DNA from: Flavobacterium sp. TR2
GTDB lineage: Bacteria > Bacteroidota > Bacteroidia > Flavobacteriales > Flavobacteriaceae
Assembly (NCBI RefSeq): GCF_025252405.1
Contig: NZ_CP104307.1
Span: 4,278,001 to 4,342,000 of the forward strand
DNA length: 64,000 nucleotides
Direction: 5' to 3'
Shown: in pieces, positions 3,202-45,507 of the stretch
How the letters are laid out: each line of letters starts with the position of its first letter
Position numbering within the stretch: position 1 is the first letter of the stretch
The notes under the pieces: generated by a model
Told to the model about the DNA's origin: nothing
Database searches by the model: none
What the model saw: only the letters and a program-made list of their open reading frames with translations
Made by a program: the position numbers and the translations under genes

Positions 3202-3231
3202 CAAAAATATATAAAAAAACGAATTACACAA
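3202..3231 (-). promoter_or_regulatory. Bacteroidota-type promoter of the partial susC
   Basis: On the minus strand the -7 box is TATTTTTG (3209-3202), matching TAnnTTTG. Exactly 19 bp upstream is TTG (3231-3229), matching the -33 element. That TTG is part of the palindromic operator at 3229-3238, so repressor binding should block the promoter. The same geometry is found at the other susC. Confidence 0.65.
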
Positions 3232-3238
3232 CCGATTG
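3229..3238. promoter_or_regulatory. LacI-type operator, CAACCGATTG, overlapping the susC -33 box
   Basis: A perfect palindrome of the CAA(C/T)CG(A/G)TTG family with a central CG. It is one of nine copies in the window, all intergenic. It overlaps the -33 element of the partial susC. Confidence 0.7.
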
Positions 3239-3527
3239 TTTGAAATTTCATTGATTATTTAATAAAAAAATGAATAAATAAAAACGCATTAAACATTTTT
3301 TATTACAATTTTATGAATATTTGATAATTTAAAAACAGTTTCAACTAGAAACAATATTGGTTTTTCAACTAATCCTCAAAATTATTAACAATTGTATATT
3401 TTACACTTAATATTCTAAGCAGTCCTACATTGTAAGCATATTACCACAATAGATTCATAAAATCAGTACATTAGCCCAAAATTGAAGCGTAATAGATTCA
3501 ATAGAAAGTAAATTTAGAAGCTAAAAA

Positions 3528-3537
3528 CAACCGATTG
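3528..3537. promoter_or_regulatory. LacI-type operator, CAACCGATTG, second copy upstream of susC
   Basis: Same palindrome, 299 bp upstream of the copy that overlaps the promoter. It lies just past the terminator of the preceding operon. It may be an auxiliary site for looping. Confidence 0.55.
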
Positions 3538-3581
3538 TAATAATTGCATCACATCAAAAAACATGGATGCTACTTGGAAAG

Positions 3582-3611
3582 AAAAAGCCAGCTTAACCAA
3601 TAAGCTGGCTT
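3582..3611 (-). terminator. Rho-independent terminator of the susCD/enzyme operon
   Basis: A perfect 11-bp stem (3585-3595 with 3601-3611, loop ACCAA) is followed on the minus strand by a T run (the A run at 3582-3586 of the plus strand). It sits 26 bp after the stop codon of the GH97 gene, at the end of the 25-kb co-directional gene run. Confidence 0.85.
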
Positions 3612-3637
3612 ATATAAGAATGGAGCAGTAAAACGTT

Positions 3638-5578
3638 TTAATTTGTGATTACTATACCTCCATTTTTCGGTATTTTTAGTTCAACTTCTTTGTTTTTGCC
3701 TACTATCAATTTATTTACTTTTCCGTTTAACTGATCGTCATCAGCATAATAATTTACTGTCGCTCCAGAATTAAGCATTTCTAACTTTATTTTTATCTTC
3801 AACAGTTTATTTTCAGCATTAATTCCAGCTATATACCACTTTGCTCCTTTTCTTCTGGCCATCACAGCATATTTGCCTGGATATCCTTCCAGAAAGCGGA
3901 CTTCATCCCAGACTGTCGGCACTTCTTTCATAAATTTTACGGCCCAGTCTGGAGCATCATATAAATTATTAGGCGCCAAAGCAAAATGCTGCACACCGCT
4001 CTGAAAAAGCACTGAAGTTGCTAGAGCAAATACATCTGAAGTCATTCTTTTAGAGCCTTTGTTGGGAATGTTATCGCTATTGTAGAATTTGTTCAAAGCG
4101 CTTCCGCCAAAATCCATGCTTCCCACCGCATTTCTTATAAAAGTATGCGTTGCTGCATTTACAGCTTCATTATCGCAGCTCTGCTGTCCGAAATGCAGAT
4201 TCTCGCTTGCCAGAACCGCTTCGCTGGAGGCGTAGTTCGGATACATTCGTTCCCAGCCTCGAGGCAGGGTGCAGCCGTGAAAAATAACCATTATTCCGAA
4301 TTCGTTGGCATCCGTCAGAATGTCTTCATACAGTTTCATGGTCACCTGCTTGTCGCCGCCAAAAAAGTCTACTTTTATTCCTTTGATTCCGATGCTTTTC
4401 ATCCAAGCCATTTCTTTTCTTCTGATCGCCGCATTATCCATCAATCCTCTCGGGCCTTGCGGAGCATTATTCCAATACCCGTTTGAATTGTACCATAAAT
4501 AAAGCCCAACGCCCTTCTGCTTTCCGTATGCCGCTAATTCTTCTATTTTATCGCGGCCAATCTGCGTATCCCAAAGCGCATCGACTAAAATGGTTTCATA
4601 TCCCAGTGAAGCGCTGAAATCAATATATTGCTTCTGCACAGGAAACGTAGTGTTGTTATCCATTTTGATAATCCAGCTCCAAGTGCCTTTTGTGTACTGG
4701 TATTCTTTAGAGGCCTCATATTTTGGCTTAACCAGGTCAAACGGAATCGTGGTCTCCACTATCGGAGCAAGCGTTTCTCCAATTGTAATGGTGCGCCATG
4801 GCGTTTCTCCCGGAAGCGGGATTCCCGGCGATGTCGTCCCGTTTCCGTTATTTTCTCCCGGCATCGGAAATCCGATTGAATATAATCCGTTCTCATGTCC
4901 GATCAGCCTGCTGGCACAATAGCCGCTGTCGACTCCCGTTTCAGAAATTAAGACCCATCCGTCGTTTACTTTAAACAGACACGGGAACGTATATCCATTT
5001 CCCCAGCCATTTTTTCCGACGGCATCACCCAGCGTATAGGAAGTCTCATAACTGGGAGCTGTGTTTGCGAATCCGGTCATCGGATTGCTTTGCGGACACA
5101 GAAATGTCGTGGTTCCTTTTGGCATCAGAAATCCCGAAGCCTCTTCCTGAACCACGCAGGAAAGCGTCTCTTTTTGCGGATATATTTTATATTTAAATGC
5201 CAGATTATTATTGCTCACCCTAAAAATCACATCAAGAGCCGGTCTGCCCTCTTTTGTGAACGAAAAAACAGCTTCGTTGGCCGTATAATGCACGCTGCTT
5301 TTTTTGATGTTGCGAAGCTGATACGATTCGTCAATTTTATTTTGGATGCTATTTGCTTCCAAAGTTAATCCAGAGCTGAAATCTCCCGCATTTGTTTTTA
5401 AACCTAATGGCGATTTTTCTATAAACGTTTTTTCATTGAATGTTACACTATACTGGGGCATTCCGTTGTTTACAGAAACCGACACGGCAAGTTTTCCATC
5501 CGGACTTTTTACCACTGATTGGGCGTTTAGTTTAAAGAAACTAACTAAACACAAGAATAATATTTTTTTAAGATTCAT
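3638..5578 (-). CDS. GH97 glycoside hydrolase (retaining-type, alpha-galactosidase-like)
   Basis: 646 residues with an N-terminal signal peptide ending near LNAQ. Residues 20-290 form the beta-sandwich typical of GH97 and the (beta/alpha)8 barrel follows (TWSWIIKMDN, then DFSASLGYETILVDALW). GH97 has two mechanisms. Inverting alpha-glucosidases (SusB) lack the nucleophile, whereas the retaining branch has an Asp in a KVDF motif and a Glu further on. Here IKVDFF gives Asp404 and SSEAV gives Glu453, placing it in the retaining branch. Characterised retaining members include alpha-galactosidases, and some in Bacteroides act on other alpha- or beta-L-arabinopyranosyl ends. It is the last gene of the operon, 68 bp after a GH43, and is a paralogue of the GH97 at 8853-10775. 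The exact linkage cut is not determined. Confidence 0.9.
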   Translation of the reverse strand: MNLKKILFLCLVSFFKLNAQSVVKSPDGKLAVSVSVNNGMPQYSVTFNEKTFIEKSPLGLKTNAGDFSSGLTLEANSIQNKIDESYQLRNIKKSSVHYTANEAVFSFTKEGRPALDVIFRVSNNNLAFKYKIYPQKETLSCVVQEEASGFLMPKGTTTFLCPQSNPMTGFANTAPSYETSYTLGDAVGKNGWGNGYTFPCLFKVNDGWVLISETGVDSGYCASRLIGHENGLYSIGFPMPGENNGNGTTSPGIPLPGETPWRTITIGETLAPIVETTIPFDLVKPKYEASKEYQYTKGTWSWIIKMDNNTTFPVQKQYIDFSASLGYETILVDALWDTQIGRDKIEELAAYGKQKGVGLYLWYNSNGYWNNAPQGPRGLMDNAAIRRKEMAWMKSIGIKGIKVDFFGGDKQVTMKLYEDILTDANEFGIMVIFHGCTLPRGWERMYPNYASSEAVLASENLHFGQQSCDNEAVNAATHTFIRNAVGSMDFGGSALNKFYNSDNIPNKGSKRMTSDVFALATSVLFQSGVQHFALAPNNLYDAPDWAVKFMKEVPTVWDEVRFLEGYPGKYAVMARRKGAKWYIAGINAENKLLKIKIKLEMLNSGATVNYYADDDQLNGKVNKLIVGKNKEVELKIPKNGGIVITN

Positions 5579-5646
5579 AAACTTTGAAGATTTTTCTTTT
5601 TGTAATGATTACACTCTTTTTACTGAAGTAGGGTTAGCTAAAAATG

Positions 5647-7017
5647 TTATTTCGAAAACATCCAATAATCAAAATACATGATTTTTTCAGCGGCATTGCC
5701 TTTGTATATAAAATAAAGATCGTGCACTCCAGAAACCTTTTTGATATCTGCTGTAACGAGAGCCCACCTATCATTTCCTCCCGTCATAGGAACTTTTACT
5801 GTTCCTATCAATTCTCCCTCCAGACTATCAAGTCTAATTTCCATTGATACATTTCCATTGTGCGTAGTACCTACACGAGCTATAAATTTTGAAGCACCCG
5901 ATTCACGAAAATCAACATCTCTGACTTTCGTGAAGGCATTGTTTTTCATAGCTGTAATAAAAACGCCAACTTCCTTATTCTGCATAGATTTTACATCTTT
6001 AGACCAAGCTATCGTTTCTGCTTCTGACTTAGCATACGGATTCAGAGTTCCGATTCCTTTTTTAATTCCCTCTGTCATGTTCATTTCTTTGACTTTACCG
6101 TCAGAATTAAAAAACAATTCTTCAACTGCCACAGATCTAGTAAAACCGCTGCCTCCTGGTAAAGCTCCATTATGGTAAAAGAAATATGTTTTTCCTTTAA
6201 AATCTACTACTCCAGGATGATTGGTAAAACTCTCTCCCTGTGTTGGCATTACAACTCCTTGATATTTCCACGGCCCAATCGGACTTTTGCTTGTAGAATA
6301 CCCTATATGCTCGGAAATAGGTCCAGCAGCAAAAAATAGATAGTATAATTTGTTTCTTTTATAAAGCCACGGCCCTTCTTCGTAAGTGGTAGGTCTGCGG
6401 GGATCTTCTTTTCCGGTACGCTTTCCAAACGATTCAATTGTGTTTGGAAATATCTTTACCTCATCGGTATAAGAAATCATGTCTTCGTTTAATTTCACAT
6501 AATGGCAAACCGGATTGCCCCACAATAAATAAGCCTGTCCATCATCGTCGATAAAAACGGTTGGATCAATATCTGCGTCACTATTTTGCACCAGAGGTTT
6601 TCCTAACGGATCTATAAATGGCCCATACGGACTGTCAGATACTGCAACACCAATGCCATTTCGCCCTTGATTATCTGTAATTGGCGCATACAAATAAAAC
6701 TTCCCTTTTCTTTCTATGCATTGAATTGCCCAAGCATTCATTTTAGCCCAGCTAAAATCTTTATACGATAATACCGCTCCATGATCTGTCCAGTTTACCA
6801 TATCTTCTGTAGTGTACAATTTCCAGTCGTTCATGGTAAACCAAGTAGAATGGTCTTCGTCATGCGAAGTATACAAATACAGTTTATTATTGTAAACCAT
6901 TGGCGCCGGATCTGCTGTATAGCTTGTCTGTACAATAGGGTTTTGGGCAAAACCGCATACAGAAATGCTAAATGCTGTTAAAAACCTTAAATTTTTTAAA
7001 TAAATTTTAATTGACAT
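5647..7017 (-). CDS. GH43 family enzyme with C-terminal CBM6-like domain
   Basis: 456 residues with a signal peptide ending at CGFAQ. The five-bladed propeller of GH43 carries the three expected acids: Asp36 in TADPAPM (general base), Asp151 in DIDPTVF (pKa modulator) and Glu214 in YEEGPW (general acid). A beta-sandwich of CBM6 type occupies about residues 330-456 ([14 protein letters not shown] start, here [13 protein letters not shown], ending in FDYWMF). The family removes alpha-L-arabinofuranosyl or beta-D-xylosyl groups, and this domain layout is common in arabinoxylan loci. It follows a close paralogue (7055-8392) by 37 bp and precedes GH97 by 68 bp in the same operon. Periplasmic or outer-membrane-associated; the specificity (arabinofuranosidase or xylosidase) is not settled by sequence. 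Confidence 0.92.
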
Positions 7018-7054
7018 CTTCCTTATTTTTTACTTTTTAAACTAGAACTAAAAA

Positions 7055-8392
7055 TTATTTAAAAGTCCACCAGTCTAAATTAAACATTGATTTTCCCTCA
7101 CCCTTAAATACAAAAAAGACATTATGAAGACCTTTTACGTTTTTAACCTTACAGGCAAAATCTTTCCAATTATTCACGCTTCCAGTGTTTTTTATATCGC
7201 ACACTCCTAAAAGTGCTCCATCTTTATCATCTAGATGTATTTCTATTCTACCTCCCAAAACAGAAGATGCATTTACAAAAAATTCTTTTGGTGATTTCTT
7301 AAAATTAACTGCTTTAACTTCTATGTAATCATTATTGTCAATCTGGGTTATAAAAACTCCTTTTTGATCCTTTTTGTCTGACTTCACTCCTTCACTCCAA
7401 GCAATTGTTTCGGCTTCAACACGGCTAAAAGGATTAATATCTCCTACAGCAGTAGGTCCATCAACGGAGAAATACAACAGTGTTTTTATCGTTCCGTCAG
7501 GATTATAAATGATTTCATCCAGATCCACCGAGCGTCTTTCATAAAATGTAGAAGTTTGTCTTTTTATGACATCATAGCTATGCCCAAAAACATACGATTT
7601 TCCTTTATAATCAATAATTCCCGGATGATTCCCTCTTGTTTTTTCGCTGGCTTCTATGACCATTCCCTTGTATTCCCACGGTCCTGTTGGAGAATTGCTC
7701 ATAGCATATCCAATTCCTTCCGGACAGCAGGTTGAAGCATAAGACAGGTAATATTTTCCTTTTCTTTTGTAAATCCATGGTCCTTCCTGATAATTCTTCG
7801 GTTTAGTCGGTTCTTTTATCACATCGCCCGAATAAGAGATCATATCCTCATTTAATTTTACGTAATAAACATCCGGATTACCCCAATACAAATAAGCTTG
7901 TCCATCATCGTCTATAAAAGGAGATGGGTCAATATCATTCCATTTATGATCAGTATCTATTAATCGTTTTCCCAATGGATCTTTAAAAGGCCCATAAGGA
8001 CTATCTGAAACTAAAACGCCTATTCCATTTCCATGCATTGGTGCATATAGATAAAATTTCCCATTACGCTCAATAGTCTGGATTGCCCAAGCTCCGTTGT
8101 CTTGTCTTGCCCAGCTAAAATCTTTTAAAGAGGCTACAGCTCCCCTATCGGTCCAGTTTACCATATCTGTGGAAGTATACAAAAGCCAGTCAAGCATTTT
8201 GAAACCTTTTGCATCATCTTCATCATGAGAAGTATATAAAAAAACAGTATCCTTGTAAACCATTGGAGCTGGATCAGCAGTATATTTTGTCTGGATTATC
8301 GGCTTTTGCTTAATATCGCTTTGGGCAATTCCTTGAAAAGAAAGCATTATAAGAAAGCAGAAAACTATAATTTTATGGGTGCTTTTATTCAT
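7055..8392 (-). CDS. GH43 family enzyme with C-terminal CBM6-like domain (paralogue)
   Basis: 445 residues with an export signal ending near QGIAQ. Catalytic triad: Asp40 in TADPAPM, Asp155 in DIDPSPF and Glu203 in YQEGPW. The CBM6-like domain spans about residues 320-445, starting FSRVEAETIAW and ending FNLDWWTF. It matches the next gene along its whole length, including the shared block SHDED and the SDSPYGPF motif, so the two arose by duplication. It has a shorter insertion between the second and third catalytic acids than its partner, which may mean different side-chain preference. Expected role: removal of arabinofuranose or xylose from (arabino)xylan fragments. It lies 52 bp after the GH31 remnant. 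Confidence 0.92.
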   Translation of the reverse strand: MNKSTHKIIVFCFLIMLSFQGIAQSDIKQKPIIQTKYTADPAPMVYKDTVFLYTSHDEDDAKGFKMLDWLLYTSTDMVNWTDRGAVASLKDFSWARQDNGAWAIQTIERNGKFYLYAPMHGNGIGVLVSDSPYGPFKDPLGKRLIDTDHKWNDIDPSPFIDDDGQAYLYWGNPDVYYVKLNEDMISYSGDVIKEPTKPKNYQEGPWIYKRKGKYYLSYASTCCPEGIGYAMSNSPTGPWEYKGMVIEASEKTRGNHPGIIDYKGKSYVFGHSYDVIKRQTSTFYERRSVDLDEIIYNPDGTIKTLLYFSVDGPTAVGDINPFSRVEAETIAWSEGVKSDKKDQKGVFITQIDNNDYIEVKAVNFKKSPKEFFVNASSVLGGRIEIHLDDKDGALLGVCDIKNTGSVNNWKDFACKVKNVKGLHNVFFVFKGEGKSMFNLDWWTFK

Positions 8393-8444
8393 AATATTTA
8401 ATTTAAAAAATTTTGAATTATATGATTTGATACTTTATTATTCA

Positions 8445-8842
8445 TTACAACTTTACCGAAATTTGATTTCCGTTATAACTAATTATTTTTTCCAATTCTT
8501 TTGCAGATGCACCTGATTCTAAGTGATCTGAAGATATTTTTATAATTTTAAATCTGCGTTGCTTTATCATCTCAGGAAATGATCCTTGCTGTTTATTGAT
8601 GCAACTTTAAAAACGGGAACAGCAAGGTTCTCTATCAAAATCAGCTCTTGCAGTTCTTTTGTGTTTTCGGCACGTAACTGAATTCTAATAGAGTTCTCCG
8701 TTATAGGAATGATATGCAGCATTCCTTCTTTTAACGGAATCAAAAGACGGTCTTTTTCTAGAATATAACTTTTATCTATATTTTTAAAACCAAATAAAAA
8801 TATCAGAAAAAAAGGAGCTATAAGTTTAAGTTTAAAAAGCAT
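8445..8842 (-). pseudogene. GH31 (alpha-xylosidase-like) remnant: N- and C-termini joined by a large internal deletion
   Basis: From the ATG at 8842 the first ~80 codons encode a signal-like segment and a GH31 N-terminal domain start (LKEGMLHIIPITENSIRIQL, then ENLAVPVFKV). The frame ends at 8567. In the adjacent frame, from about 8605 to the stop at 8445, the sequence encodes a typical GH31 C-terminus: QGSFPEMIKQRRFKIIKIS and then SYNGNQISVKL before the stop. GH31 enzymes have about 700-950 residues, so the entire catalytic barrel is missing and the two ends sit in different frames. This is an inactivated gene. It lies exactly where an intact alpha-xylosidase or alpha-glucosidase would fit, 10 bp after GH97 and 52 bp before GH43, so the deletion did not break the operon. 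Confidence 0.75.
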
Positions 8843-8852
8843 ATAACATTCA

Positions 8853-10775
8853 TTATTTGTTTACTACTAACATCGCTGCAAAACCTCCCTGATTTAACAT
8901 TTTAATATCAACAGAACTTGTTTTGCTTACCAATAAATATTGGGTATTAAAAGCTTTATCATGATTCCCGTCGGCAATTAAGGTGAGCTTAAACGTTTGT
9001 CCATCTGGTAAAAAATCAAATTTCAACTTCTGGATTTTTTCTTTTCTTCCTGAATTAATACCGCCAATAAACCAATCTGCTCCTTTTCTTCTAGCGATAA
9101 CCGTATATTTCCCTGGATATCCATCAACTAAAATTGTATCGTCCCAAGATGCGGGAACGCTCTTTAGAAAAGTTTTGGCCGCATCTGGCAATTCATAGTA
9201 TCCTTCTGGTCTATCAGCCATATGCTGTATACCTGATTCAAATGCAACACTTAATGCCAGTTCATGTCCATAAGAGGTGATATGCGGAAATTGAGAATTT
9301 GTAAACGTTACAGGAGTGTAATCCATTGATCCTACGACATTACGGGTAAAAGCCAATGTATTGTTATGTTCTGGTGCCGTCGTAGTTAATTCAGGCCCAT
9401 TGTTGTACCATTCGGCACCACGGACAGCTTCATAAGTCATAAGATGCGGATAAGTTCTCTGCCATCCGCGCGGCACCAAACATCCGTGAAAATAGACCAT
9501 GATTTTATACTTCGCAGCATCTTCTAAAAGATCCAAATAATACTTTATGATTTCTTGTTTTTCACTTAGAAAAAAATCAACCTTTATCCCGTAAACGCCA
9601 AGCTTATTTAACTTCTCAAATTCTTTAACTCGGTTTTCGTGAGTCAGCATTCGGTCAACAGGTGTAGAAGTGATCCATTTAAATTTACCTGAATTATACC
9701 ACATTAAAGGTTTGATTCCTTTTGAATGAATATATTTTATAGCATCTTCTAAATTACCGCCATTTTCCATCTGATCCCATTCCCAATCCAAAAGTGTATA
9801 AGGCCAATTCATGGCCGCTGCTAAATCGGCAAATTGAGTCACCGTTTTAAAATCTTTTGTTCCGTGGTTATTCGACCAATAATTCCATGACGCAACACCC
9901 GGCTGAATCCAATCTGTATTATTTAAAACAGAAGGTTTCGACACATCATCCACTAATGTAGATTTGACAATATCTCCAAGTTCTCCCACAATTACAACCC
10001 TCCAAGGCGATTTCCAAGGCAATGTTATTTTAGCAAAAGGCTCTCCTACGCCTTCTTCTGTTCCAGGAAGCGCTACTTTATACTGGTTTTTATTTTGGGT
10101 ATTAGCCAGTTTAGAAGCAGCATAATTTCGGTCTAAATCGGCTTCATGAATCAGATACCAGCAAGGGCTATTTTTTGCTTTAAACAACGCTGGATAACAC
10201 CAATCCTGCTGTACATCACCATTGTTCATGCTATTGTAAAGCCCTTCATTGGACAAATCAAACTTTTCCAGCCATCTTTCTGTACTTTCAGGAATAGAAT
10301 AAGCCGTTAACTCATCTGAAATGGTATAAGTTCCTTGTTTTTCTGGAAATTCATAACGAAATGCGACTCCGTCATTATACACTCTTAAAATTATGTTTAA
10401 AAGGGATTTCGATTCATTTTCAAAATACAAAACCACTTCATTTGCCGTATTGGAGCGTTCCGATTTTTTGCCGTGCAATGCTTTGTACTGCTCTTTAATA
10501 AGCACAGTTTTGCCAATCTTTTTTAATTTTAAGTCTTTTGAAAAGGTCTGGTCGTTTCGTACAATTCCCAAATCTATTTTTGGAATTATTGCGTCATGTC
10601 TGTCTTTATTGCCGTAATTCACCTGCAAATACCAGCTTCCAGAATTAGTATTCTGACTGTCAAATAATGCAACCACTATTTTTTGATTGGGAGAAGTCAA
10701 AACTGCTTTCTGTCCATACGAATAGGCAATCGTAAACAGAAACAAAGCTAAACTGAATGTAGATTTTATATTCAT
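8853..10775 (-). CDS. GH97 glycoside hydrolase (retaining-type)
   Basis: 640 residues from the chosen start, MNIKSTFSLALFLF, which opens a clean signal peptide ending AYSYGQ. An upstream in-frame ATG (10943) would overlap the preceding GH43 and add a non-signal extension, so it is rejected. Beta-sandwich to about residue 290, then a barrel (WNYWSNNHG, PYTLLDWEWD). The retaining-branch nucleophile is Asp400 in GIKVDFF and the probable acid/base is Glu449 in TYEAV. It parallels the GH97 at 3638-5578 in layout but differs around the barrel (WEWD instead of ALWD), which suggests a different substrate end group. Likely an alpha-galactosidase or an enzyme for another terminal sugar on xylan side chains. 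22 bp after GH43 and 10 bp before the GH31 remnant. Confidence 0.9.
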   Translation of the reverse strand: MNIKSTFSLALFLFTIAYSYGQKAVLTSPNQKIVVALFDSQNTNSGSWYLQVNYGNKDRHDAIIPKIDLGIVRNDQTFSKDLKLKKIGKTVLIKEQYKALHGKKSERSNTANEVVLYFENESKSLLNIILRVYNDGVAFRYEFPEKQGTYTISDELTAYSIPESTERWLEKFDLSNEGLYNSMNNGDVQQDWCYPALFKAKNSPCWYLIHEADLDRNYAASKLANTQNKNQYKVALPGTEEGVGEPFAKITLPWKSPWRVVIVGELGDIVKSTLVDDVSKPSVLNNTDWIQPGVASWNYWSNNHGTKDFKTVTQFADLAAAMNWPYTLLDWEWDQMENGGNLEDAIKYIHSKGIKPLMWYNSGKFKWITSTPVDRMLTHENRVKEFEKLNKLGVYGIKVDFFLSEKQEIIKYYLDLLEDAAKYKIMVYFHGCLVPRGWQRTYPHLMTYEAVRGAEWYNNGPELTTTAPEHNNTLAFTRNVVGSMDYTPVTFTNSQFPHITSYGHELALSVAFESGIQHMADRPEGYYELPDAAKTFLKSVPASWDDTILVDGYPGKYTVIARRKGADWFIGGINSGRKEKIQKLKFDFLPDGQTFKLTLIADGNHDKAFNTQYLLVSKTSSVDIKMLNQGGFAAMLVVNK

Positions 10776-10797
10776 TTTATTATGCGTTTTATGAGGA

Positions 10798-12375: not shown

Positions 12376-12417
12376 TTCGGTTTCGATTTTTGGCATTTCT
12401 AAAGGAAATATGATGTG

Positions 12418-35506: not shown

Positions 35507-35617
35507 TTTATTGATTAGTTACGTAAGCAAAAGTGGTTTCTAAAAATAAAGTTATTCAATTTTTTTGATCATTTCTCATCCTTTTAACTGCTAATATCAT
35601 AGCAATTTTCATTAAAA

Positions 35618-35627: not shown

Positions 35628-35695
35628 TGTAAAATTATACAAAAAAACATATTTTACAAATTTACTTTTCTTTATTTAATTTATTTTTCAAATCA

Positions 35696-35705
35696 CAACC
35701 GATTG
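35696..35705. promoter_or_regulatory. LacI-type operator, CAACCGATTG, second copy upstream of the GPH symporter
   Basis: Same palindrome, 78 bp from the neighbouring copy and 40 bp after the GH10 stop codon. The two copies in this 238-bp gap probably control the symporter-GH43 unit. Confidence 0.6.
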
Positions 35706-35744
35706 TTAATTAATTTATAAAAATTCAACTCTTTTTAGCAGTTA

Positions 35745-36851: not shown

Positions 36852-36901
36852 ATTTTTTGGTTTAAATAGTTAATAGTTTTTTTTCTTAACGGAGATAGTA
36901 A

Positions 36902-39508
36902 TCATTCCTTCCTAAAACTCTCCGGCGGTCCCAAATACGACTGTAAAACTTTTCCTTCTTGGGTTTCAATTACAATTTTTTGAAGCACTAAAGCAGGATC
37001 AATGGCATAAATTTTCAAAACATGATTTCCTGCTTTTTCAATTTTATGAGTTGAGGTTATTATTTTAATATTATTCGCAACAGATTCTGCCCAAGCTTTT
37101 TCCGAAGTATCTGAGTTGAGGTTCATGATTTGCGGTTTCTCATTGTCAAAAGCAATTCCGTATTTTAATCCGTCTCCCTTTTTAAAATTGATTGTTGGCG
37201 AAAAATAGGCATTTACTTTTATTTTTCCTTTGCTAAAAAAACAAACAGTGTACTCTAACCTTGGAGACTGTTCCGAAATCTCAACAGGTTTACTATTCGA
37301 AGGCTTTAAAGTTACTCCTGATGATGTTTTTCCAAGATTTGGAATTATCGTCCATTTTACAGAATCTGAATTTATTGCTTTAGAATAATTTTCACTTTCT
37401 ATTGAAATGTAACCGTTCTCTTCAACAAAACCTTTAATATGATCTGAATCTCTATTTTTAGCATCTAACATCTCCTCCTTTGCAGAATTCTTAGCAGAAA
37501 TTCCTGCTTTGACTTGATTGGGACTTTCGATTATTCTAGTCTTCGGCATCACATTTTTCTCAGGCTGCTGCCAATTATCATAACCTATATGTGTCTGCGA
37601 CATCATGTGATTCCACTTCCCATTGGCTATTTGGGCATGATAATAATTTGTGAGCTCGGCATCTTTTTCAAATAACGCCTTTACTTTTACGCCATAATCA
37701 TTTGCAACGACATTTCCCTGTTCTGCATACAATTGATTTTTAGCCTGCGCTACATACAATTCATTTAAATTAGCGCTTGCCAAAACAGGAAATAAAACCA
37801 GCTGATAAAAAGCATCTTTGTATTCTGGTTTCAATTTTTCATTTACCGAATTAGCTTTTTCAACCAGTCTCTGATATTCTGCAACAATCCTATCTGCTTC
37901 ATTATAATTTGTAATACTATATGTTCTTGAGTCTAATAATTCAGGCTTTCTTCGTGAATTATATTTTGTATATAATTTCAAAATCTCTGCAATTTCAGCT
38001 GTAAACTGATTGTCAAAATTCTTTTTAGCCCAATCTGCATAATACTGTTCTAAATTCCCAGCATTGAACTTTTCAGGGTTCCACGCCATGTTCAAGAAAA
38101 ATTCAATCGGAAATTCCATTGGTTTGATGTCTCCCACATTTACAATCCAGATTTTATCGACACCGTATTGATACGCCAAATCCATTTGTTCCCAAACTCT
38201 TTCAATTTGATTCGTGTTGATCCATTTGTAATTTCTTGGGCCGCCAACATAATCGTAATGATAATAAATTCCATAGCCGCCTTTTCTGGGTTTCGAATCC
38301 AATTCTGGAAGTTTGCGGATATTTCCCCAATTATCATCACAAAGCAAAAGCGTAATATCATCGGGAACTGTCATTCCTTTGTCATAATAATCCTGAACTT
38401 CTTTGTAAAGCGCCCATATTTGCGGAGTTTCCTCCGCTGGCTTTTTCGTAACTTGTGAAATAATATCTCTTTGTGTTTTTACAATATTTTCTAATAACTC
38501 AATCGCAGTTCCTTCCGTCATAGGTTCGTCGCCGTCGCCACGCATTCCAATGGTAACGATGGTTTCCTTGTTTCCCATACGTTTAATTCCGTCTTTCCAG
38601 AATTGAATCAAAGCTTCTGAATTGGCAGTAAAATCCCATTTCCCGTTAGATTTTCCCCATTCGGCATGGGCTCTCGTTAAGGGTTCGTGATGCGAAGTTC
38701 CCATTACAATTCCGTATTCATCGGCCAAAACAGCATTCTGCGGATCTTCTACATAAAACATTCTGCCCCACATTGCCGGCCATAAATAGTTGCCTTTCAT
38801 TCGCAGAATCAATTCAAAAACTTTATCATAGAATTTCGAATTGAATCCGCCAAATTTCTCAAATGCCCAACCTGTAAGTGCTGGAGCTTCATCATTTATA
38901 AAAATTCCTCTGTATTTTACTTTTGGCTCTCCCTGTGAATGAATTCCGGGCAGAATATGCAATTCTGATTGTTTTTTAACCGGAACATCTGCCCAATAAT
39001 ACCAAGGTGAAACGCCAATTTGATTAGACAAATCGTAGATTCCATAAATCGTCCCTCGTTTATCTGAACCTGCAATTACCAGCGCTTTCTTGATTCCTTT
39101 AAACGGATTTTCAACTATCTGCGTGGTAAATTTTTCCCATTTTCCCTGAAGCTGATTCGCGTCTATTTTTCCTTTTTTAGCTAATTGATCGATAATTTCA
39201 CTTTTTCCAAGCGTGCCAATGATAACAACAAAATCTTCTGCTTCTGAAATCTTTTTTATTCTCTTCGAATGTAAATCGGAAATCTTAAAAAGATCATTTT
39301 CTAAATGTCCTGTCACTTTTAGAACTCCTGCATAATCTTTATCGTTAACCAAAATTGAAGCTGTTTTCCCATTACTTACTAAAGGAAAATTTTCACTAGA
39401 AGCCTGATTGACTACATATTTCTCTGGATTTATGGCATACGAATTTGTGCTTAATCCGATTAGGAAAAATAGTAGGATTAGGTATGAAGTTTTAATTTTT
39501 GAACACAT
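36902..39508 (-). CDS. GH115 alpha-glucuronidase
   Basis: 868 residues from the chosen start MCSKIKTSYLILLFFL, which gives a signal peptide ending TNSYA. An upstream in-frame ATG (39556) lies inside an extragenic inverted repeat and adds 16 non-signal residues, so it is rejected. Family motifs are present in order: RGIFINDEAPALTGW (about 200-214), GNYLWPAMWGRMF, GTSHHEPLTRAHAEW, MRGDGDEPM (322-330) and CDDNWGNIR (390-398), with a C-terminal beta-domain after residue 700 (GYISIESENYSKA). GH115 removes 4-O-methyl-glucuronic acid from internal as well as terminal xylose of glucuronoxylan. Located between uxuA and GH10. Confidence 0.95.
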   Translation of the reverse strand: MCSKIKTSYLILLFFLIGLSTNSYAINPEKYVVNQASSENFPLVSNGKTASILVNDKDYAGVLKVTGHLENDLFKISDLHSKRIKKISEAEDFVVIIGTLGKSEIIDQLAKKGKIDANQLQGKWEKFTTQIVENPFKGIKKALVIAGSDKRGTIYGIYDLSNQIGVSPWYYWADVPVKKQSELHILPGIHSQGEPKVKYRGIFINDEAPALTGWAFEKFGGFNSKFYDKVFELILRMKGNYLWPAMWGRMFYVEDPQNAVLADEYGIVMGTSHHEPLTRAHAEWGKSNGKWDFTANSEALIQFWKDGIKRMGNKETIVTIGMRGDGDEPMTEGTAIELLENIVKTQRDIISQVTKKPAEETPQIWALYKEVQDYYDKGMTVPDDITLLLCDDNWGNIRKLPELDSKPRKGGYGIYYHYDYVGGPRNYKWINTNQIERVWEQMDLAYQYGVDKIWIVNVGDIKPMEFPIEFFLNMAWNPEKFNAGNLEQYYADWAKKNFDNQFTAEIAEILKLYTKYNSRRKPELLDSRTYSITNYNEADRIVAEYQRLVEKANSVNEKLKPEYKDAFYQLVLFPVLASANLNELYVAQAKNQLYAEQGNVVANDYGVKVKALFEKDAELTNYYHAQIANGKWNHMMSQTHIGYDNWQQPEKNVMPKTRIIESPNQVKAGISAKNSAKEEMLDAKNRDSDHIKGFVEENGYISIESENYSKAINSDSVKWTIIPNLGKTSSGVTLKPSNSKPVEISEQSPRLEYTVCFFSKGKIKVNAYFSPTINFKKGDGLKYGIAFDNEKPQIMNLNSDTSEKAWAESVANNIKIITSTHKIEKAGNHVLKIYAIDPALVLQKIVIETQEGKVLQSYLGPPESFRKE

Positions 39509-39532
39509 ATCGTCACAAACTTTTTTATTTAA

Positions 39533-39615
39533 TCTCACAAAATCGCAGAGTCGCAAAGCAATTCTTTTTTAAGCTTTTTCAAAACAAAACTTTGTGACTC
39601 TGCGACTTTGCGAGA
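39533..39615. repeat. Extragenic inverted repeat between uxuA and GH115
   Basis: Arms of 26 nt (39533-39558 and 39590-39615) match with three mismatches, all purine transitions that keep G-T pairing on one strand. The core word is TCGCAGAGTC. Related in theme to the repeat at 40835-40920 (compare GCGCTAAGTC). It would form a long hairpin in the leader of the GH115 message. Confidence 0.8.
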
Positions 39616-39648
39616 AATTCTCATCACATTAGATTTAGAAAACTTTAA

Positions 39649-40821
39649 TTACAAATTCAATTTATATCCAATTCCCATTTCCAAACCTCGTAATTCGGCC
39701 AAACCTTTCAATCTACCTGTCAACGAATAGCCTGGATAGGTCTCCGTAGTTTCATCAACTCTATGCAGAAAACCGTGATCTGGACGCATTGGAAGGCTTA
39801 TTTTGGTTTTGTTCATTAGCATCAACAATTTCTCAACAATCACTTCCATTTTAACATCACCGTTTAAATGCTCTGATTCCCTAAAAATAGTTTCGCTTTC
39901 GCGGATGGTATTTCTCAGGTGTAAGAAGTGTATTCGGTCTCCAAAATCGTCTATTATTTTTTCCAGATTGTTTTTTTGATCGGCACTTAACGAACCTGTA
40001 CAATAGCACAATCCGTTTGCTGTTGATGGAACGGCATCAAAAATCGCTTTCAAATCTTCTTCTGTTGAGACAATTCTTGGAAGACCTAAAACCGAAAACG
40101 GGGGATCATCCGGATGAATGGCTAATCTTTGTCCATTTTTCTCCGCAATCGGAGTTACTTCTGATAAAAAATAAATCAGGTTTTCTCTTAGCTTTTGATT
40201 GTCGATTTCAGCATAATTTTCTAAAAGAGACAAAATTTGTTCTGCCGTAAAATTGATTTTACTTCCCGGAAGTCCTAACAAAACATTTTTAAACAATAAT
40301 GCTTTTTCTTCTTCCGATAATTGATTTCCAAACTGTAACGCTTTTTCTTTTTCAGCATCAGCATAATCGTTTTCTGAATTGGGTCTTTTTAAAAGAAAAA
40401 CATCAAAAAACGTAAATGCATCCTGATTGTAAAATAAAGCTTTGCTTCCATCTTCGTTTATAAAATTATGGTTCGTTCGCACCCAATCCAGAATCGGCAT
40501 AAAATTGTAGGTTATGATTTTAATGCCACACTCCGCAAGATTTTGCAAACTGATTTTATAATTTTCAATATATTGCAAATAATTTCCAGAAGCACGTTTG
40601 ATTTCTTCATGAACAGGAAGACTTTCAACTACAGTCCATTCCAATCCGTAAGTGCCAATGATTTCCTGTCTTTCCTTTATTGCTTCAACAGTCCAGATTT
40701 CGCCGACAGGAATTTGATGCAATGCTGTTACAATTCCCGTTGCACCCGCTTGCTTAATATCGATAAGTTTTACGTTGTCTTGAGGTCCAAACCAACGCAT
40801 GGTTTGCTGCATTTTTATCAT
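39649..40821 (-). CDS. uxuA: D-mannonate dehydratase
   Basis: About 390 residues from MIKMQQTMRWFG; MQQTMRWFGPQD (40812) is also possible. The longer frame from 40875 starts within an inverted repeat and is rejected because UxuA proteins begin at the RWFGP block. Motifs: QAGATGIVTALHQIPVGEIW, the metal-site HPDDPPFSVLGLPRI and C-terminal MRPDHGFLHR with TYPGYSLTGRLKGLAELRG. It converts D-mannonate to 2-keto-3-deoxygluconate in glucuronate breakdown. Upstream is the SDR expected to make mannonate, downstream GH115. Confidence 0.96.
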   Translation of the reverse strand: MIKMQQTMRWFGPQDNVKLIDIKQAGATGIVTALHQIPVGEIWTVEAIKERQEIIGTYGLEWTVVESLPVHEEIKRASGNYLQYIENYKISLQNLAECGIKIITYNFMPILDWVRTNHNFINEDGSKALFYNQDAFTFFDVFLLKRPNSENDYADAEKEKALQFGNQLSEEEKALLFKNVLLGLPGSKINFTAEQILSLLENYAEIDNQKLRENLIYFLSEVTPIAEKNGQRLAIHPDDPPFSVLGLPRIVSTEEDLKAIFDAVPSTANGLCYCTGSLSADQKNNLEKIIDDFGDRIHFLHLRNTIRESETIFRESEHLNGDVKMEVIVEKLLMLMNKTKISLPMRPDHGFLHRVDETTETYPGYSLTGRLKGLAELRGLEMGIGYKLNL

Positions 40822-40834
40822 ACTTCTTTTTTTT

Positions 40835-40920
40835 AATGCCACAAAGGCGCTAGGACGTAAAGTTTTTCTCTCCAAAGTTTTTTAAAATAAAACTTCGTGA
40901 CTTAGCGCCTTTGTGGCATT
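40835..40920. repeat. Extragenic inverted repeat between the SDR gene and uxuA
   Basis: 32-nt arms (40835-40866 and 40889-40920) with 27 matches, the outer 18 perfect (AATGCCACAAAGGCGCTA). It fills most of the spacer, ending 7 bp before the SDR stop codon. Confidence 0.8.
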
Positions 40921-40927
40921 TTCTCAA

Positions 40928-41665
40928 TTAAAACCCAATACTATTTCCGCCATCAACAGGTAAAACTGTACCTGTAGTATATTTTGATTCGCTTAAAGCA
41001 AAATAATAAACCGCATCTGCAATGTCTGAAGGTTCACCTAAATAGCCCATTGGCGTTCTTCCCAATACTTTATTTTTTCTTTCCGGATCGTTATCAAGTG
41101 CTGTTGATGACATTTTGGTTTTAATGAATCCTGGAGCAATGCAGTTCGCGCGAATACCAAATTGAGCCAATTCAACAGCCATAGCACGCGTCATCGCTTC
41201 AATAGCGCCTTTGCTTGACGAATACGCAATTACTTTTGGAATTCCATATTGCGATGCCATCGAACTGATATTAATGATGCTTCCGCCTCCGTTTTCTTTC
41301 ATGTTTTTAATGACTTCTCTGCTTACGGCGAAAACGCTCAATAAATTGGTGTGAATTATCGAAAGGAAATCTTCATTAGTTACCTCCGGAATTTCTTTTT
41401 TCATATTGATTCCAGCGTTGTTGACCAAAATATCAATCGGACTATTTTTGGTAATGCTTTCAATCATTGCCGGAATTCCTTTCAAATCATTTAAATCAAA
41501 GATTACAGGAATGGCATTTTCTCCAATTTCTTTACAGGCGTCTTCTGTTTTTTCTTTCGATCTACCAATTATATAAGTTGTGATTCCGTTGTCACAAAGT
41601 TTTTTTGCCGTTGCAAAACCTAATCCCGAATTTCCTCCCGTTACAATTGCCGTTTTCTTACTCAT
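40928..41665 (-). CDS. SDR-family oxidoreductase, probable D-mannonate oxidoreductase (fructuronate reductase)
   Basis: 245 residues. Rossmann motif TGGNSGLG, then NNAG, the catalytic Ser (IINISSMASQ) and YSSSKGA (Tyr and Lys), with the end PVDGGNSIGF usual for classical SDR enzymes. Its place directly upstream of uxuA matches Bacillus subtilis, where the SDR protein UxuB (YjmF) reduces D-fructuronate to D-mannonate beside UxuA; Escherichia coli uses an unrelated long-chain enzyme. This makes fructuronate reduction the best guess. A gluconate or other sugar-acid dehydrogenase cannot be excluded. Confidence 0.85.
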   Translation of the reverse strand: MSKKTAIVTGGNSGLGFATAKKLCDNGITTYIIGRSKEKTEDACKEIGENAIPVIFDLNDLKGIPAMIESITKNSPIDILVNNAGINMKKEIPEVTNEDFLSIIHTNLLSVFAVSREVIKNMKENGGGSIINISSMASQYGIPKVIAYSSSKGAIEAMTRAMAVELAQFGIRANCIAPGFIKTKMSSTALDNDPERKNKVLGRTPMGYLGEPSDIADAVYYFALSESKYTTGTVLPVDGGNSIGF

Positions 41666-41689
41666 AATTTTTATGCTATATTTTTAGTA

Positions 41690-41810
41690 CGCTGATAAAA
41701 CGGATTCACTGTTGCAAAAACGCTGATTTACACAGATTTTTTATTTATCATTTTAATTGGAAAAAATCCGTTTTTTCCTGTGTCTTCGCAATAGCGAATC
41801 TGCGTCATCG
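41690..41810. repeat. Imperfect extragenic inverted repeat between GH67 and the SDR gene
   Basis: Left part 41690-41747 and right part 41761-41810 share an inverted, diverged sequence: GGATTCACTGTTGCAAAAAC on the left matches AGATTCGCTATTGCGAAGAC in the reverse complement of the right. It lies between co-directional genes like the other two repeats of this block. Confidence 0.55.
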
Positions 41811-41832
41811 ATGTTACAATTATCCAATTTAT

Positions 41833-43986
41833 TTATCCATTTCCCGGTGCAAAAGGAAATTTTAATGATTTAAAATACCCTAATGTCTGTGTCGGTTTTT
41901 CTACTCCAGCAGGAAGCTCTTTTCCTGAAAACTGCTGAAAATACAGCAAACAGGCATCGCGCCACCACTTTGCTTCTTTATGCTGAATTTCTAACAACAT
42001 TTTCACTTCACTAAAGCGTTCACTGTCTATATATTTTTCAGTTTTGTCCCAAACATTCTGCATTTCTCTAACCTGATTTACACCTTCCTGATATTTTAGC
42101 GCTAAACCATTCCAAAGCGTTTGTCCGTTTTTCAATTTATAATCCCATGAAAGATGATGAAACCATAAAAGATCTTTTTCTGGACAGGTTTCTAAATTAT
42201 CAAAAAGTCTGGCAACTTCTGGAGCATATTGTGAAACGGCATTTGTACCCGATTTCGATCTGTCAAAACCAATTCCATTTTTGTCTGCTTTATGATAATA
42301 AGTTGGATTCCATTCTGGTCTTGATAAATTGGAAACCCAAGGTCCTGGCCCGTAATGATGTCCCGTATCCATAATATGATGCAAACCCAACGGAGTCATA
42401 TAATTGACAACGGCTTCGCGCGATTCAATCATAATATTTTTTACTGGTTTAATAAAATTTTCATCATTAGAAAATGTACTTCTTAACCACTCCTCAGCGA
42501 TATCTTCAGAATCTAAATACGGATTCCATGCCAATCTTCCGAAACCGTACCAATTGGCTTGCGCAAAAGGATGTCCTGTCCAATTTAAATCGTTTCCGAT
42601 ATTAGCAACACCGGCAATTCCCGTTAGTTTATTTGGATATAAAGTGCCATCAATAACCTTGGCTACAGTTGAACCTTTTCCTTTTTGGTAGGTATCAGAT
42701 TCCAAAACTTCCTGAAATAATTTAGGCAGAAAAACCAAGTGCGTACTAAAACCTAAATATTCCTGTGTGATTTGAAATTCCATCATTAAAGGCGTTTTTG
42801 GCATCGCACCAAATAACGGATGAAACGGCTCTCTTGGCTGAAAATCAATCGCTCCGTTTTTTACCTGAACGATTACATTATCTTTGAATTTTCCGTCATA
42901 CGGCTGAAATTCTGCGTAAGCTTGTTTGGCGCGATCATTGGCATCATGTTCAGAATACACAAAGGCTCTCCACATAATTACGCCGCCAAAAGGTGCAACG
43001 GCATCGGCCAGCATATTGGCTCCGTCAACATGATCTCGTCCATAATTTTGAGGACCTGGCTGACCTTCTGAATTAGCTTTTACCAAAAATCCGCCAAAAT
43101 CTGGAATTCGTTTATAGATTTCAGCCGACTTATTTTTCCACCAATTAATCACTTCAGGATCTTTTGGATCGGCTGTTTTTAGATTTCCGATTTCAATTGG
43201 CGCCGAAAATCTTGCCGTTAGATAGACTTTTATTCCGTAAGGTCTGAAAACATTGGCTAATGCTTCTACTTTTTCCAAATACTGCGGAGTCAGAATTAAA
43301 GCGTTTGCATTTACATTGGTTAAAACCGTTCCGTTAATTCCAATTGAGGCATTCGCTCTAGCGTAATCAATATAGCGCTGGTCTATAAAATCTGGAAGTT
43401 TCTGCCAGTTCCATAACGAAAATCCAGCATAACCACGTTCTACCGTTCTGTCAAGATTATCCCAATGATTTAAGATTCTGATATTTGTTTTTGGAGAATC
43501 AGCAATACTTAAATCTTTAACCGATTTATTGGTTTGCAATATTCTCAGGAAATGAAAAACGCCATACAAAACAGCAATATCATTCTTTCCTGTAATGACT
43601 ATTTGCTTTTTATTTTTAAGTGAAATGGATTTGATAATAAAACCTTCATTATTGATTTTATTCAAATCAGCTTGCAATTCTGTTTTGATTTCGGAACTTA
43701 AATTCATTTGTGAGCCAACAATTAGATTATTCTCTCCTTTTGCGTCTTTTCTGATTTCAGGAATACTTCCTAACATATCCACAAATCCAGTTTTGAGTTC
43801 TTTTTCAGCAATTTTAATGGTTTCAGAATTTCCTAATACTGCAATACCTTTAAGATTGTTCTTGTATTCAGAAGCTACTATTGAATTGGCAACTGTATTA
43901 TACTGAAGCCACAATTTATAATCCTTTTGCGCTACAGTCGAAAAGGAAATAATAAGAAACAGGAAAACAAATCTTAATGAAGTCAT
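41833..43986 (-). CDS. GH67 alpha-glucuronidase
   Basis: 717 residues with a signal peptide ending FSTVAQ. Motifs of GH67: ILNHWDNLDRTVERGYAGFS, VKANSEGQPGPQNYGR with acid Glu307, VKNGAIDFQPRE with Asp381 and MMEFQITQEYLG with Glu409. The spacings 74 and 28 residues agree with the catalytic set Glu292, Asp365 and Glu393 of Cellvibrio GlcA67A. The enzyme removes 4-O-methyl-glucuronate from the non-reducing terminal xylose of oligosaccharides, complementing GH115. It is the first gene of the run GH67-SDR-uxuA-GH115-GH10 and has an operator 120 bp upstream. Confidence 0.96.
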   Translation of the reverse strand: MTSLRFVFLFLIISFSTVAQKDYKLWLQYNTVANSIVASEYKNNLKGIAVLGNSETIKIAEKELKTGFVDMLGSIPEIRKDAKGENNLIVGSQMNLSSEIKTELQADLNKINNEGFIIKSISLKNKKQIVITGKNDIAVLYGVFHFLRILQTNKSVKDLSIADSPKTNIRILNHWDNLDRTVERGYAGFSLWNWQKLPDFIDQRYIDYARANASIGINGTVLTNVNANALILTPQYLEKVEALANVFRPYGIKVYLTARFSAPIEIGNLKTADPKDPEVINWWKNKSAEIYKRIPDFGGFLVKANSEGQPGPQNYGRDHVDGANMLADAVAPFGGVIMWRAFVYSEHDANDRAKQAYAEFQPYDGKFKDNVIVQVKNGAIDFQPREPFHPLFGAMPKTPLMMEFQITQEYLGFSTHLVFLPKLFQEVLESDTYQKGKGSTVAKVIDGTLYPNKLTGIAGVANIGNDLNWTGHPFAQANWYGFGRLAWNPYLDSEDIAEEWLRSTFSNDENFIKPVKNIMIESREAVVNYMTPLGLHHIMDTGHHYGPGPWVSNLSRPEWNPTYYHKADKNGIGFDRSKSGTNAVSQYAPEVARLFDNLETCPEKDLLWFHHLSWDYKLKNGQTLWNGLALKYQEGVNQVREMQNVWDKTEKYIDSERFSEVKMLLEIQHKEAKWWRDACLLYFQQFSGKELPAGVEKPTQTLGYFKSLKFPFAPGNG

Positions 43987-44105
43987 TGGCTTTAATTTAT
44001 TCTTTACAATTTCATTTTTACAACATCAATATTTTACTCCTTATTAAAAGCATATAATAAAATTTTGAACCGAAAAATGCATTATTCTAAATAAAACAAT
44101 AATTG

Positions 44106-44115
44106 CAATCGGTTG
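44106..44115. promoter_or_regulatory. LacI-type operator, CAATCGGTTG, upstream of GH67
   Basis: Same palindrome, 120 bp before the GH67 start codon, a distance similar to that at susC, xylB and the symporter gene (112-126 bp). No clear -7 box at the standard spacing. Confidence 0.65.
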
Positions 44116-44188
44116 CGTAAAAATATAGGATTGTTGTTTAAGAAAAAAATTTTGGATGCCTTTTTTTCAAAAAAATAATTTATTTAAC

Positions 44189-44223
44189 AAAAAAAGCAGG
44201 ATAATTACAAAAACTATCCTGCT
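44189..44223 (-). terminator. Rho-independent terminator of the lacI-type gene
   Basis: Perfect 9-bp stem AGCAGGATA (44196-44204) with TATCCTGCT (44215-44223), followed on the minus strand by a run of seven T. It starts 22 bp after the regulator's stop codon. Confidence 0.87.
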
Positions 44224-44244
44224 CTGTCGTATCTTAAAAAATAA

Positions 44245-45273
44245 TTATTTCTGGGTAGATTCTCTTGCGAGTACTTCTGTATTTAAAAAAGTGATTTCTT
44301 TCGCATCGTCATTTTTAGACGATTTCAAATTCTTAATGATAATTTCAGCTGCTGCTTTTCCCATTTTTTCTGCTGGATGCGTAATAGTCGATATATTTGG
44401 ATCAATAATCTGCGAAATTGGATCATTATTAAAACCAATTACCTTAAACTCTTCGGGGACTCTGATTCCGCGTTTTTTTGCAGTTTGAACTGCGCTTACA
44501 GCCAAAATATCTCCTGGTGCAAACAATCCATCCGGAATTGGCTTTAAATCAAATAAAGCGTTGCTGCCCTTTACCCCGTCTTCATATGTAACCGAATTTA
44601 AGTTGATAATTAATTCTTCTTCCACTTCGATATTATGATCTTTTAAGGCTTCAATATAACCTCTTTTCCTTTCGTTATACAAGTTTCCTAATTCTGAACC
44701 AGCTGAAAAATAGGCAATACGGATACAACCTTGTTCAATAAGATGTTTAGTTGCTTTGTAACCTGCTGTATAATTGTCAATTACAACTCTAAAAGTATTA
44801 TATCCTTTTGGAACTCTATCCACAAAAACCAACGGAATATTATTATTTGAAAACTGATGGAAATGAGCTGTATCGCTTGTTTCCATTGCCAGAGAACAAA
44901 TGACGCCGCTTACGCGATTGCTATATAAAGATTTGGCCATATTTACTTCTTCTTCATATGAGTCGTGCGACTGCATAATAATTACGGTGTAATCCGATTT
45001 TTGAGCCGCGATTTCGATTCCGCTAATCAGAGAAGATAAAAAGGGCTGTGTAACAGTAGGAATCAAAACGCCAATGGTTCTGGTTTTGTTTCCACGCAAG
45101 CCTGCCGCTAAAGTATTCGGGACAAAACCCATTTCTTCAGCGGTTTTTTTCACTTTTTTAATCGTCTTATCACTTATCGTGTGATGATCTTTTAAAGCTC
45201 GTGAAATAGTAGATGTTGCCAGATTAAGCCTCTCAGCAATATCATAAATCGTTACATATTTATTTTCTTCCAT
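44245..45273 (-). CDS. LacI/GalR-family transcriptional regulator, probable repressor of the xylan regulon
   Basis: 342 residues. HTH at residues 6-30 (VTIYDIAERLNLATSTISRAL), hinge helix at about 53-64 (NTLAAGLRGNKT) whose Leu normally intercalates at the central CG of the operator, then a periplasmic-binding-like sugar domain starting TIGVLIPTVTQPFLSSLISG and ending EVLARES. LacI-family proteins bind palindromes with a central CG, exactly the type of site repeated nine times here, including one at 45498 in its own upstream region. The ligand is not visible; xylose, xylobiose or a glucuronate intermediate are reasonable. It is transcribed divergently from the GH3-tkt pair and is the only intact regulator in the window. 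Confidence 0.95.
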   Translation of the reverse strand: MEENKYVTIYDIAERLNLATSTISRALKDHHTISDKTIKKVKKTAEEMGFVPNTLAAGLRGNKTRTIGVLIPTVTQPFLSSLISGIEIAAQKSDYTVIIMQSHDSYEEEVNMAKSLYSNRVSGVICSLAMETSDTAHFHQFSNNNIPLVFVDRVPKGYNTFRVVIDNYTAGYKATKHLIEQGCIRIAYFSAGSELGNLYNERKRGYIEALKDHNIEVEEELIINLNSVTYEDGVKGSNALFDLKPIPDGLFAPGDILAVSAVQTAKKRGIRVPEEFKVIGFNNDPISQIIDPNISTITHPAEKMGKAAAEIIIKNLKSSKNDDAKEITFLNTEVLARESTQK

Positions 45274-45356
45274 TACTATTATGATTAGTCGTAAATTTTG
45301 AATCTAATTTAAAAAGTTAGTACAGCAATTCAATACCGCCTGTTTTCGTTTTACAT

Positions 45357-45386
45357 AACAAATTTACTTATAACAAATTTACTTAT
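45357..45386. repeat. 15-bp tandem duplication upstream of the lacI-type gene
   Basis: Two exact copies of AACAAATTTACTTAT (45357-45371 and 45372-45386). On the minus strand each contains TAAATTTG, a perfect TAnnTTTG -7 box, 86-108 bp before the regulator start. The duplication may give two overlapping promoters; a matching -33 TTG at 19 bp is not evident. Confidence 0.6.
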
Positions 45387-45497
45387 AACCAATAGAAAAC
45401 GTAAACATTTATCATCAAAAATAATTAAAAAAAACAGTAAAATGGCATTATTTATCAAATAACACTCTAAAGTTAAATTATTTTTCTTTTCTTTACA

Positions 45498-45507
45498 CAA
45501 TCGGTTG
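45498..45507. promoter_or_regulatory. LacI-type operator, CAATCGGTTG, between lacI and GH3
   Basis: Same palindrome in the divergent spacer, 65 bp before the GH3 start and 225 bp before the regulator start. It could control GH3-tkt and autoregulate the repressor. Confidence 0.68.

Follow-up and report, generated by a model that had tools for sequence, protein, structure and literature searches.

A candidate LacI-family operator and regulator for a 67-kb xylan island in Flavobacterium sp. TR2

The stretch of DNA analyzed here (the window) comprises 64,000 nucleotides of Flavobacterium sp. TR2 contig NZ_CP104307.1 (C1:4,278,001-4,342,000). It covers much of a xylan island, C1:4,256,740-4,323,507 (67 kb), which begins upstream of the window and in which short, near-identical intergenic sites, the candidate operators, head the gene units (Table 1). 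A first-pass annotation of this DNA had placed sites at the heads of units, and the xylBA, GH10, GH67, GH3 and symporter units are indeed all headed by them; its account requires amendment in that the susC units and the symporter unit carry two operators each. Its figure of some 25 genes under this control grows to about 39 when genes are counted by co-direction. The operon boundaries of this set are putative, and other promoters could lie in a 401-bp gap before the transaldolase gene (tal) and a 230-bp gap before the esterase gene at 17205-19922. An inverted repeat, TTTTTGCG...CGCAAAAA (window about 32968-32999), lies between the stop codon of GH43 and the operator of xylB and is perhaps a terminator. 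Further along the window is a gene (51212-61243) whose 3343-aa product contains 14 DUF11 stretches as well as a CHU_C type IX secretion tail; the gene after it (61298-62221) is of the PorP/SprF type. The family-search annotation stops short of L018, downstream of the window.

Table 1. Gene units and candidate operators of the island. Positions are window positions unless marked C1 (contig coordinates).
Feature	Position	Strand	Remarks
SGL-domain gene and divergent ricin-lectin-domain protein with secretion tail			Operators C1:4256740/4257140
susCD-GH43-GH8-esterase unit			Operators C1:4267808/4268119
susC, runs out of window; first gene of tandem susCD-DUF5627-GH10 unit	1..2944	-	ORF C1:4277744-4280944; downstream genes by Pfam
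Proximal operator of susC beginning at 2944	3228..3239		TTG 19 nt before TATTTTTG
Distal operator of susC beginning at 2944	3527..3538		299 bp upstream of proximal operator
susCD unit, 12 genes, including GH43, GDSL, esterase, GH95, GH127, GH97	3638..28398	-	
Proximal operator of susC 25309-28398	28523..28534		TTG 19 nt before TATATTTG
Distal operator of susC 25309-28398	28871..28882		348 bp upstream of proximal operator
xylB, xylA, transaldolase (tal)	28959..32834	-	
Operator of xylB-xylA-tal	32955..32966		122 bp upstream of unit
GPH-type symporter and GH43	32999..35506	-	
Symporter operator, downstream member of pair	35617..35628		112 bp upstream of symporter gene
Symporter operator, upstream member	35695..35706		78 bp from downstream member; TAAATTTG box in between
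GH67, SDR, UxuA, GH115, GH10 unit	35745..43986	-	
Operator of GH67 unit	44105..44116		120 bp upstream of unit
LacI-family regulator, 342 aa, proposed repressor	44245..45273	-	PF00356 and Peripla_BP_3/Peripla_BP_1
Operator between lacI and GH3	45497..45508		225 bp upstream of lacI, 74 bp upstream of GH3
GH3 and transketolase	45572..50326	+	

The pattern CAAYCGRTTG occurs nine times in the window, exactly at the positions that had been reported (3229, 3528, 28524, 28872, 32956, 35618, 35696, 44106 and 45498) and nowhere else in it, compared with 0.26 occurrences expected by chance (sd 0.46; 100 dinucleotide shuffles, maximum 2). All nine are intergenic, as had also been claimed. They do not make up the full set, because four of the 13 island sites lie upstream of the window. 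In the 5.1-Mb genome, the core pattern was found at 21 places and the reversed pattern at three. The genome-wide motif scan proposed in the first-pass annotation gave the outcome predicted there: 13 of the 21 core sites fall within the island and are intergenic without exception (P about 2e-12, given the intergenic share of 12.4% in a 114-kb stretch), and the remaining eight all lie inside ORFs (0/8 intergenic). Intergenic core sites are confined to the island. Scanning 114,000 bases for the extended 12-mer (see below) with one mismatch gave no additional intergenic site and a single additional match; since this match is coding, the regulon is not widened, and degenerate sites were dropped as extra members.

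The predicted operator is better written as the 12-mer RCAATCGGTTGY, which is near-palindromic, with one constant asymmetric position pair, and even, with a central CG. According to the available part of PMC4052901, sites of the LacI family are as a rule even palindromes centred on CG, in agreement with the first-pass view of the central CG as a hallmark of that family. Among 99 aligned intergenic sites (13 from the island and 86 from 35 relatives' loci chosen for having sites), A/G precedes the core and C/T follows it in every case, giving RCAAYCGRTTGY; exact-match searches say nothing about whether the core itself is invariant. The core of the palindrome first described, CAA(C/T)CG(A/G)TTG, was confirmed, but its free choice of Y and R was not: all 13 island sites are asymmetric quasi-palindromes, CAATCGGTTG or its complement, with one half CAAT and the other CAAC. 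The symmetric form makes up four of the eight ORF-internal matches elsewhere in the genome, and asymmetry holds for 159 of 171 intergenic sites from 80 relatives' loci picked without regard to the motif. The orientation of the operator to its gene varies among promoters and is constant for one promoter across species, as at GH67 (65/65 distinct operator-bearing promoters) and at the nearest GH3 site (21/21). This constant orientation, together with the asymmetry, fits a dimer that would read both halves and have some reason to avoid a perfect palindrome. Outside the 12-mer, the flanks of the 13 island sites share little.

The operators take up particular places in their promoters. The -33 element is TTG, and its spacer to the -7 box is about 17-23. 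In flavobacteria, the sigma-A -7 box is TAnnTTTG (available part of PMC9723704). With promoters that share their last 150 bp counted as one, and with the count confined to operator-bearing genes, an operator's TTG is followed at 18-20 nt by an exact TAnnTTTG in all 32 distinct susC promoters; at the same spacing, the box follows 66 of 8102 non-operator intergenic TTGs. The TTG of the susC operator thus appears to occupy the place where the -33 element belongs. A second operator is present in 31 of these 32 promoters. In 29 of them it lies 299-351 bp upstream of the first; in the other two, L075 (252 bp) and L080 (113 bp), the -7 box is in register with the upstream member of the pair. Two operators precede the symporter gene in 26 of 42 promoters and one only in the other 16; the spacing is exactly 78 bp in 23 of the 26 pairs, and in 22 of these 23 an exact -7 box lies between the operators, 31 nt after the upstream site. 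The operators at the xylB, GH67 and GH3 promoters of the TR2 island have no exact -7 box in register, and among all operators of the loci examined (both strands, duplicates included) 43 of 501 have one. Because in-register -7 boxes are rare away from susC, occlusion of the -33 element would be chiefly a susC-promoter feature. The helical phase of the paired spacings is mixed at 10.5 bp per turn and speaks neither for nor against looping.

The protein encoded at 44245-45273 matches PF00356 with 40.9 bits (cut-off 27) and PF13377 with 107.7 bits (cut-off 26.5); it has the N-terminal LacI HTH and the sugar-binding-type domain that define the LacI family. Its closest PDB relatives are CcpA proteins, and an NCBIfam search reached no equivalog cut-off. 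In E. coli LacI, the tetramerisation tail is located at the C-terminal end. The match of the regulator to the 360-aa LacI chain stops at residue 305, leaving 29 query residues versus 55 in LacI, and the protein seems to be without this tail. With the tail apparently missing, proteins on paired sites would have to touch through a different surface. Of 80 relatives, 78 have NLATSTISRAL as the recognition segment and the other two NLAASTISRAL. Seven LacI-type genes are present in the TR2 genome, and the segment differs in five of the six others, the five whose N-termini were read.

An orthologue of the regulator (E up to 1e-80) was found in the TR2 genome and in 13 of the 119 other genomes searched, all of the same genus. 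We also examined 80 public loci picked by LacI protein similarity (of 154 loci, the best 80 were kept, each with Flavobacterium, Flavobacteriaceae bacterium or [Flexibacter] as its title; records of the TR2 genome itself may be left out of this list). At least one intergenic 12-mer is present in 72 of the 80, and in the other eight the DNA examined showed no operator. Flavobacterium johnsoniae strain CI04 (L169) is one of the records that have both the orthologue and operators. The 12-mers number 171 intergenic and three coding, though 87% of the DNA is coding, and four scrambled palindromes used as a control gave four matches in total over the same loci. This count is free of selection for sites; the figure of 86 intergenic against eight coding sites came from the 35 loci chosen for having sites and is biased. 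The genes nearest to the intergenic operators of the 80 loci are GH67 (58), symporter (53), SusC (26) and GH3 (13). These relatives are close kin rather than independent samples; among them, the predicted operator and the LacI gene occur together across Flavobacterium.

As a control, five same-genus genomes from those without an orthologue at E 1e-80 (G004, G007, G030, G047 and G052) yielded 34 asymmetric core sites, of which 32 are coding and three have the R...Y flanks. One exact 12-mer in G052 is intergenic (L114, G052:C49:33962). Core-site counts per genome were also tried as a test and do not track orthologue presence; chance coding matches dominate them, so they are uninformative, whereas the two kinds of genome can be told apart by whether their sites are coding or intergenic. 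Outside clusters, G006, G015, G008 and G053 have 26 single sites, of which 21 are coding and five intergenic. The site counts leave out one G053 site and all G031 sites, and cover chosen regions of G062, G059, G065, G054, G051, G005 and G049. In G006, an exact intergenic 12-mer (L227:6121, G006:C4) lies 54 bp before a 1142-aa gene that has no match to island proteins.

The lacI genes fall into two groups with nearly identical HTH, both of which are present in six of the 14 genomes having a match. The window lacI is a member of the group that mostly occurs at a distance from GH3; nevertheless, it adjoins GH3 with an operator in between. The same lacI-operator-GH3 layout occurs in F. nitrogenifigens (L146), the nearest named record among the best 80 of 154, with 99% identity to the TR2 LacI gene. 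Elsewhere, G006 carries one lacI group in each of two xylan clusters (L054 and L056). The single lacI of the TR2 genome sits in the GH3 position and is a member of the other group. Because site 45498 is common to lacI and GH3, autoregulation is plausible in the TR2 genome. The first-pass assignment of an operator to lacI and GH3-tkt holds here, where the site lies between both genes, but an intergenic operator before lacI itself is found in only 16 of the 80 relatives.

Other types of regulator occur close by. An HTCS gene with susCD, a TIG/CIA30-like protein and GH10 (C1:4242775-4254651; L016:775-12651) adjoins the island outside the window, and the genome-wide motif scan gave no LacI operator in this unit. 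The first-pass annotation had set the local repressor in place of hybrid two-component or ECF systems; this wording was too strong, given the operator-free HTCS unit next to the island, owing to which two regulators may share xylan. In G008 (L226:5152-9936), an HTCS gene with an exact operator 115 bp upstream of it is followed by susCD_b; this susCD_b is 88-90% identical to the TR2 copy, which has its own operators, and the G008 susC_b preceded by HTCS has none. The G008 arrangement may be a LacI-to-HTCS cascade. The G006 xylan clusters contain a GntR-type gene with a Peripla_BP_3 match (L054:3788-4795) and an NrtR-type gene (L056:6326-7036), so LacI need not act alone there; neither type was seen in the TR2 island.

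Overall, we consider it likely, on the sequence data, that about 39 genes of the 67-kb island are under the control of a LacI-family repressor, which would act at the 13 operators and be released by a sugar derived from xylan. In this putative mechanism, the protein of 44245-45273 would bind RCAATCGGTTGY at the 13 operators and repress the genes of xylan uptake and debranching, those of the catabolism of xylose and glucuronate, the transketolase gene and probably lacI itself. At the susC promoters, the repressor would lie over the -33 element and exclude RNA polymerase, with help from the second operator, which is located about 300-350 bp further upstream; the symporter pair, with its 78-bp spacing, brackets the -7 box. 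The releasing sugar would be cytoplasmic, either xylose or a xylo-oligosaccharide. The first-pass idea of one local repressor gains support from the genome-wide scan and from the co-occurrence of operator and lacI; that a single local repressor acts is what we infer from them. More tentatively, and with rather less than even confidence, we speculate that the susC promoters are long-range repression modules with two operators (the first joined to the -33 element, the other 300-350 bp upstream), on which a tail-less LacI would act through a loop or cooperating dimers, with the asymmetry under selection, to yield an all-or-none switch for the island.

Other readings have to be weighed. A different regulator, for example one of the six other LacI-type proteins, might read the sites, with the island lacI being incidental. 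The number of LacI-type genes in the genome (seven) and the one intergenic 12-mer in a genome lacking the orthologue would fit this, but the operators cluster around the 44245-45273 orthologue in 72 of 80 loci and the recognition residues differ in the five paralogues that were read, and we regard it as improbable. That the repeats are no operators at all, being remnants of promoter duplication or a repeat of mobile origin, is hardly credible: several sites do precede homologous susC genes, yet little is shared by their flanks beyond the 12-mer, and sites are retained at the same genes in many species.

Repression itself could also be questioned. CcpA and Cra can activate at some promoters, and CcpA proteins are the closest solved structures, so that the LacI protein might be chiefly an activator; a susC site covering the -33 position in 32 of 32 promoters and a symporter pair bracketing the -7 box suit occlusion instead, which makes activation very improbable. 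Alternatively, the HTCS at C1:4242775 may be the main xylan switch, with the LacI protein merely tuning or delaying expression. This HTCS adjoins the island, a G008 operator lies before an HTCS gene and susCD_b, and in the available part of a review (PMC10766802) the canonical control of hemicellulase genes is ascribed to HTCS, ECF systems and catabolite repression. However, the HTCS borders its own operator-free susCD-GH10 unit, whereas the 39 genes have operators, and we judge this possibility, like that of a different LacI-type reader, to be improbable. Control by the island LacI protein as a repressor is the reading that we carry forward.

E. coli LacI and GalR use main and auxiliary operators at one promoter. 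The Flavobacterium promoters resemble them in having two operators in 31 of 32 susC and 26 of 42 symporter cases, and differ in the wider susC spacing (about 300-350 bp) and the seemingly missing tetramer tail. A LacI-type XylR with a xyl-box and release by xylose is reported for Caulobacter and Xanthomonas in the available text of PMC10380989; going by that description, the likeness lies in a LacI-family repressor (here predicted) with one box before xylose and xylan genes, and the differences lie in the phylum and in the Flavobacterium targets, which are susCD units with paired operators. Within the same phylum, Bacteroides has LacI-family proteins on uronate genes (KdgR, UxaR, UxmR and UxuR), whereas its xylose genes are assigned to the NrtR-family XylR BT0791 and its polysaccharide genes to HTCS and SusR-like regulators (PMC3878776, as far as available). 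Here, genes for xylan, xylose and glucuronate together appear to fall under a single LacI-type protein. HTCS-controlled Bacteroidota xylan PULs have a similar content of enzymes and susCD (PMC10766802, in part), and a susCD-GH10 unit with an HTCS gene adjoins the island; the predicted regulon differs in that 39 genes carry candidate operators of a one-component LacI-type system.

Several accessible passages of the literature touch on the subject. The LacI-regulon survey PMC4052901 covers one Bacteroides group, and a term search of its accessible main text found neither Flavobacter nor xylan nor XylR. The legend to a Gramella flava xylan locus names a lacI gene (excerpt of PMC5306329), and beta-1,4-xylan systems are described as regulated by LacI-family or HTCS regulators (excerpt of PMC12125979). 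Among the matches listed in the open-licence literature, as far as their text was accessible, none dealt with the operator described here, or with its putative regulator, in Flavobacterium.

The predicted regulon is ordinary in kind, that of a LacI-type sugar repressor; its unusual traits are the many near-identical operators in one island, the -33 overlap at susC, a second site conserved at a distance of about 300-350 bp, and an asymmetry that is nearly constant. The analysis gives a sharp candidate operator and regulator for a large Flavobacterium xylan island that is probably governed by a simple one-protein switch, in contrast to better-studied relatives, which mostly use other kinds of sensor. 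The paired operators and their asymmetry offer a clean case for how a probably dimeric LacI protein could act over 300 bp. The operator would allow regulon prediction in Flavobacterium species having the orthologue, and it offers a basis for the design of xylan-inducible promoters.
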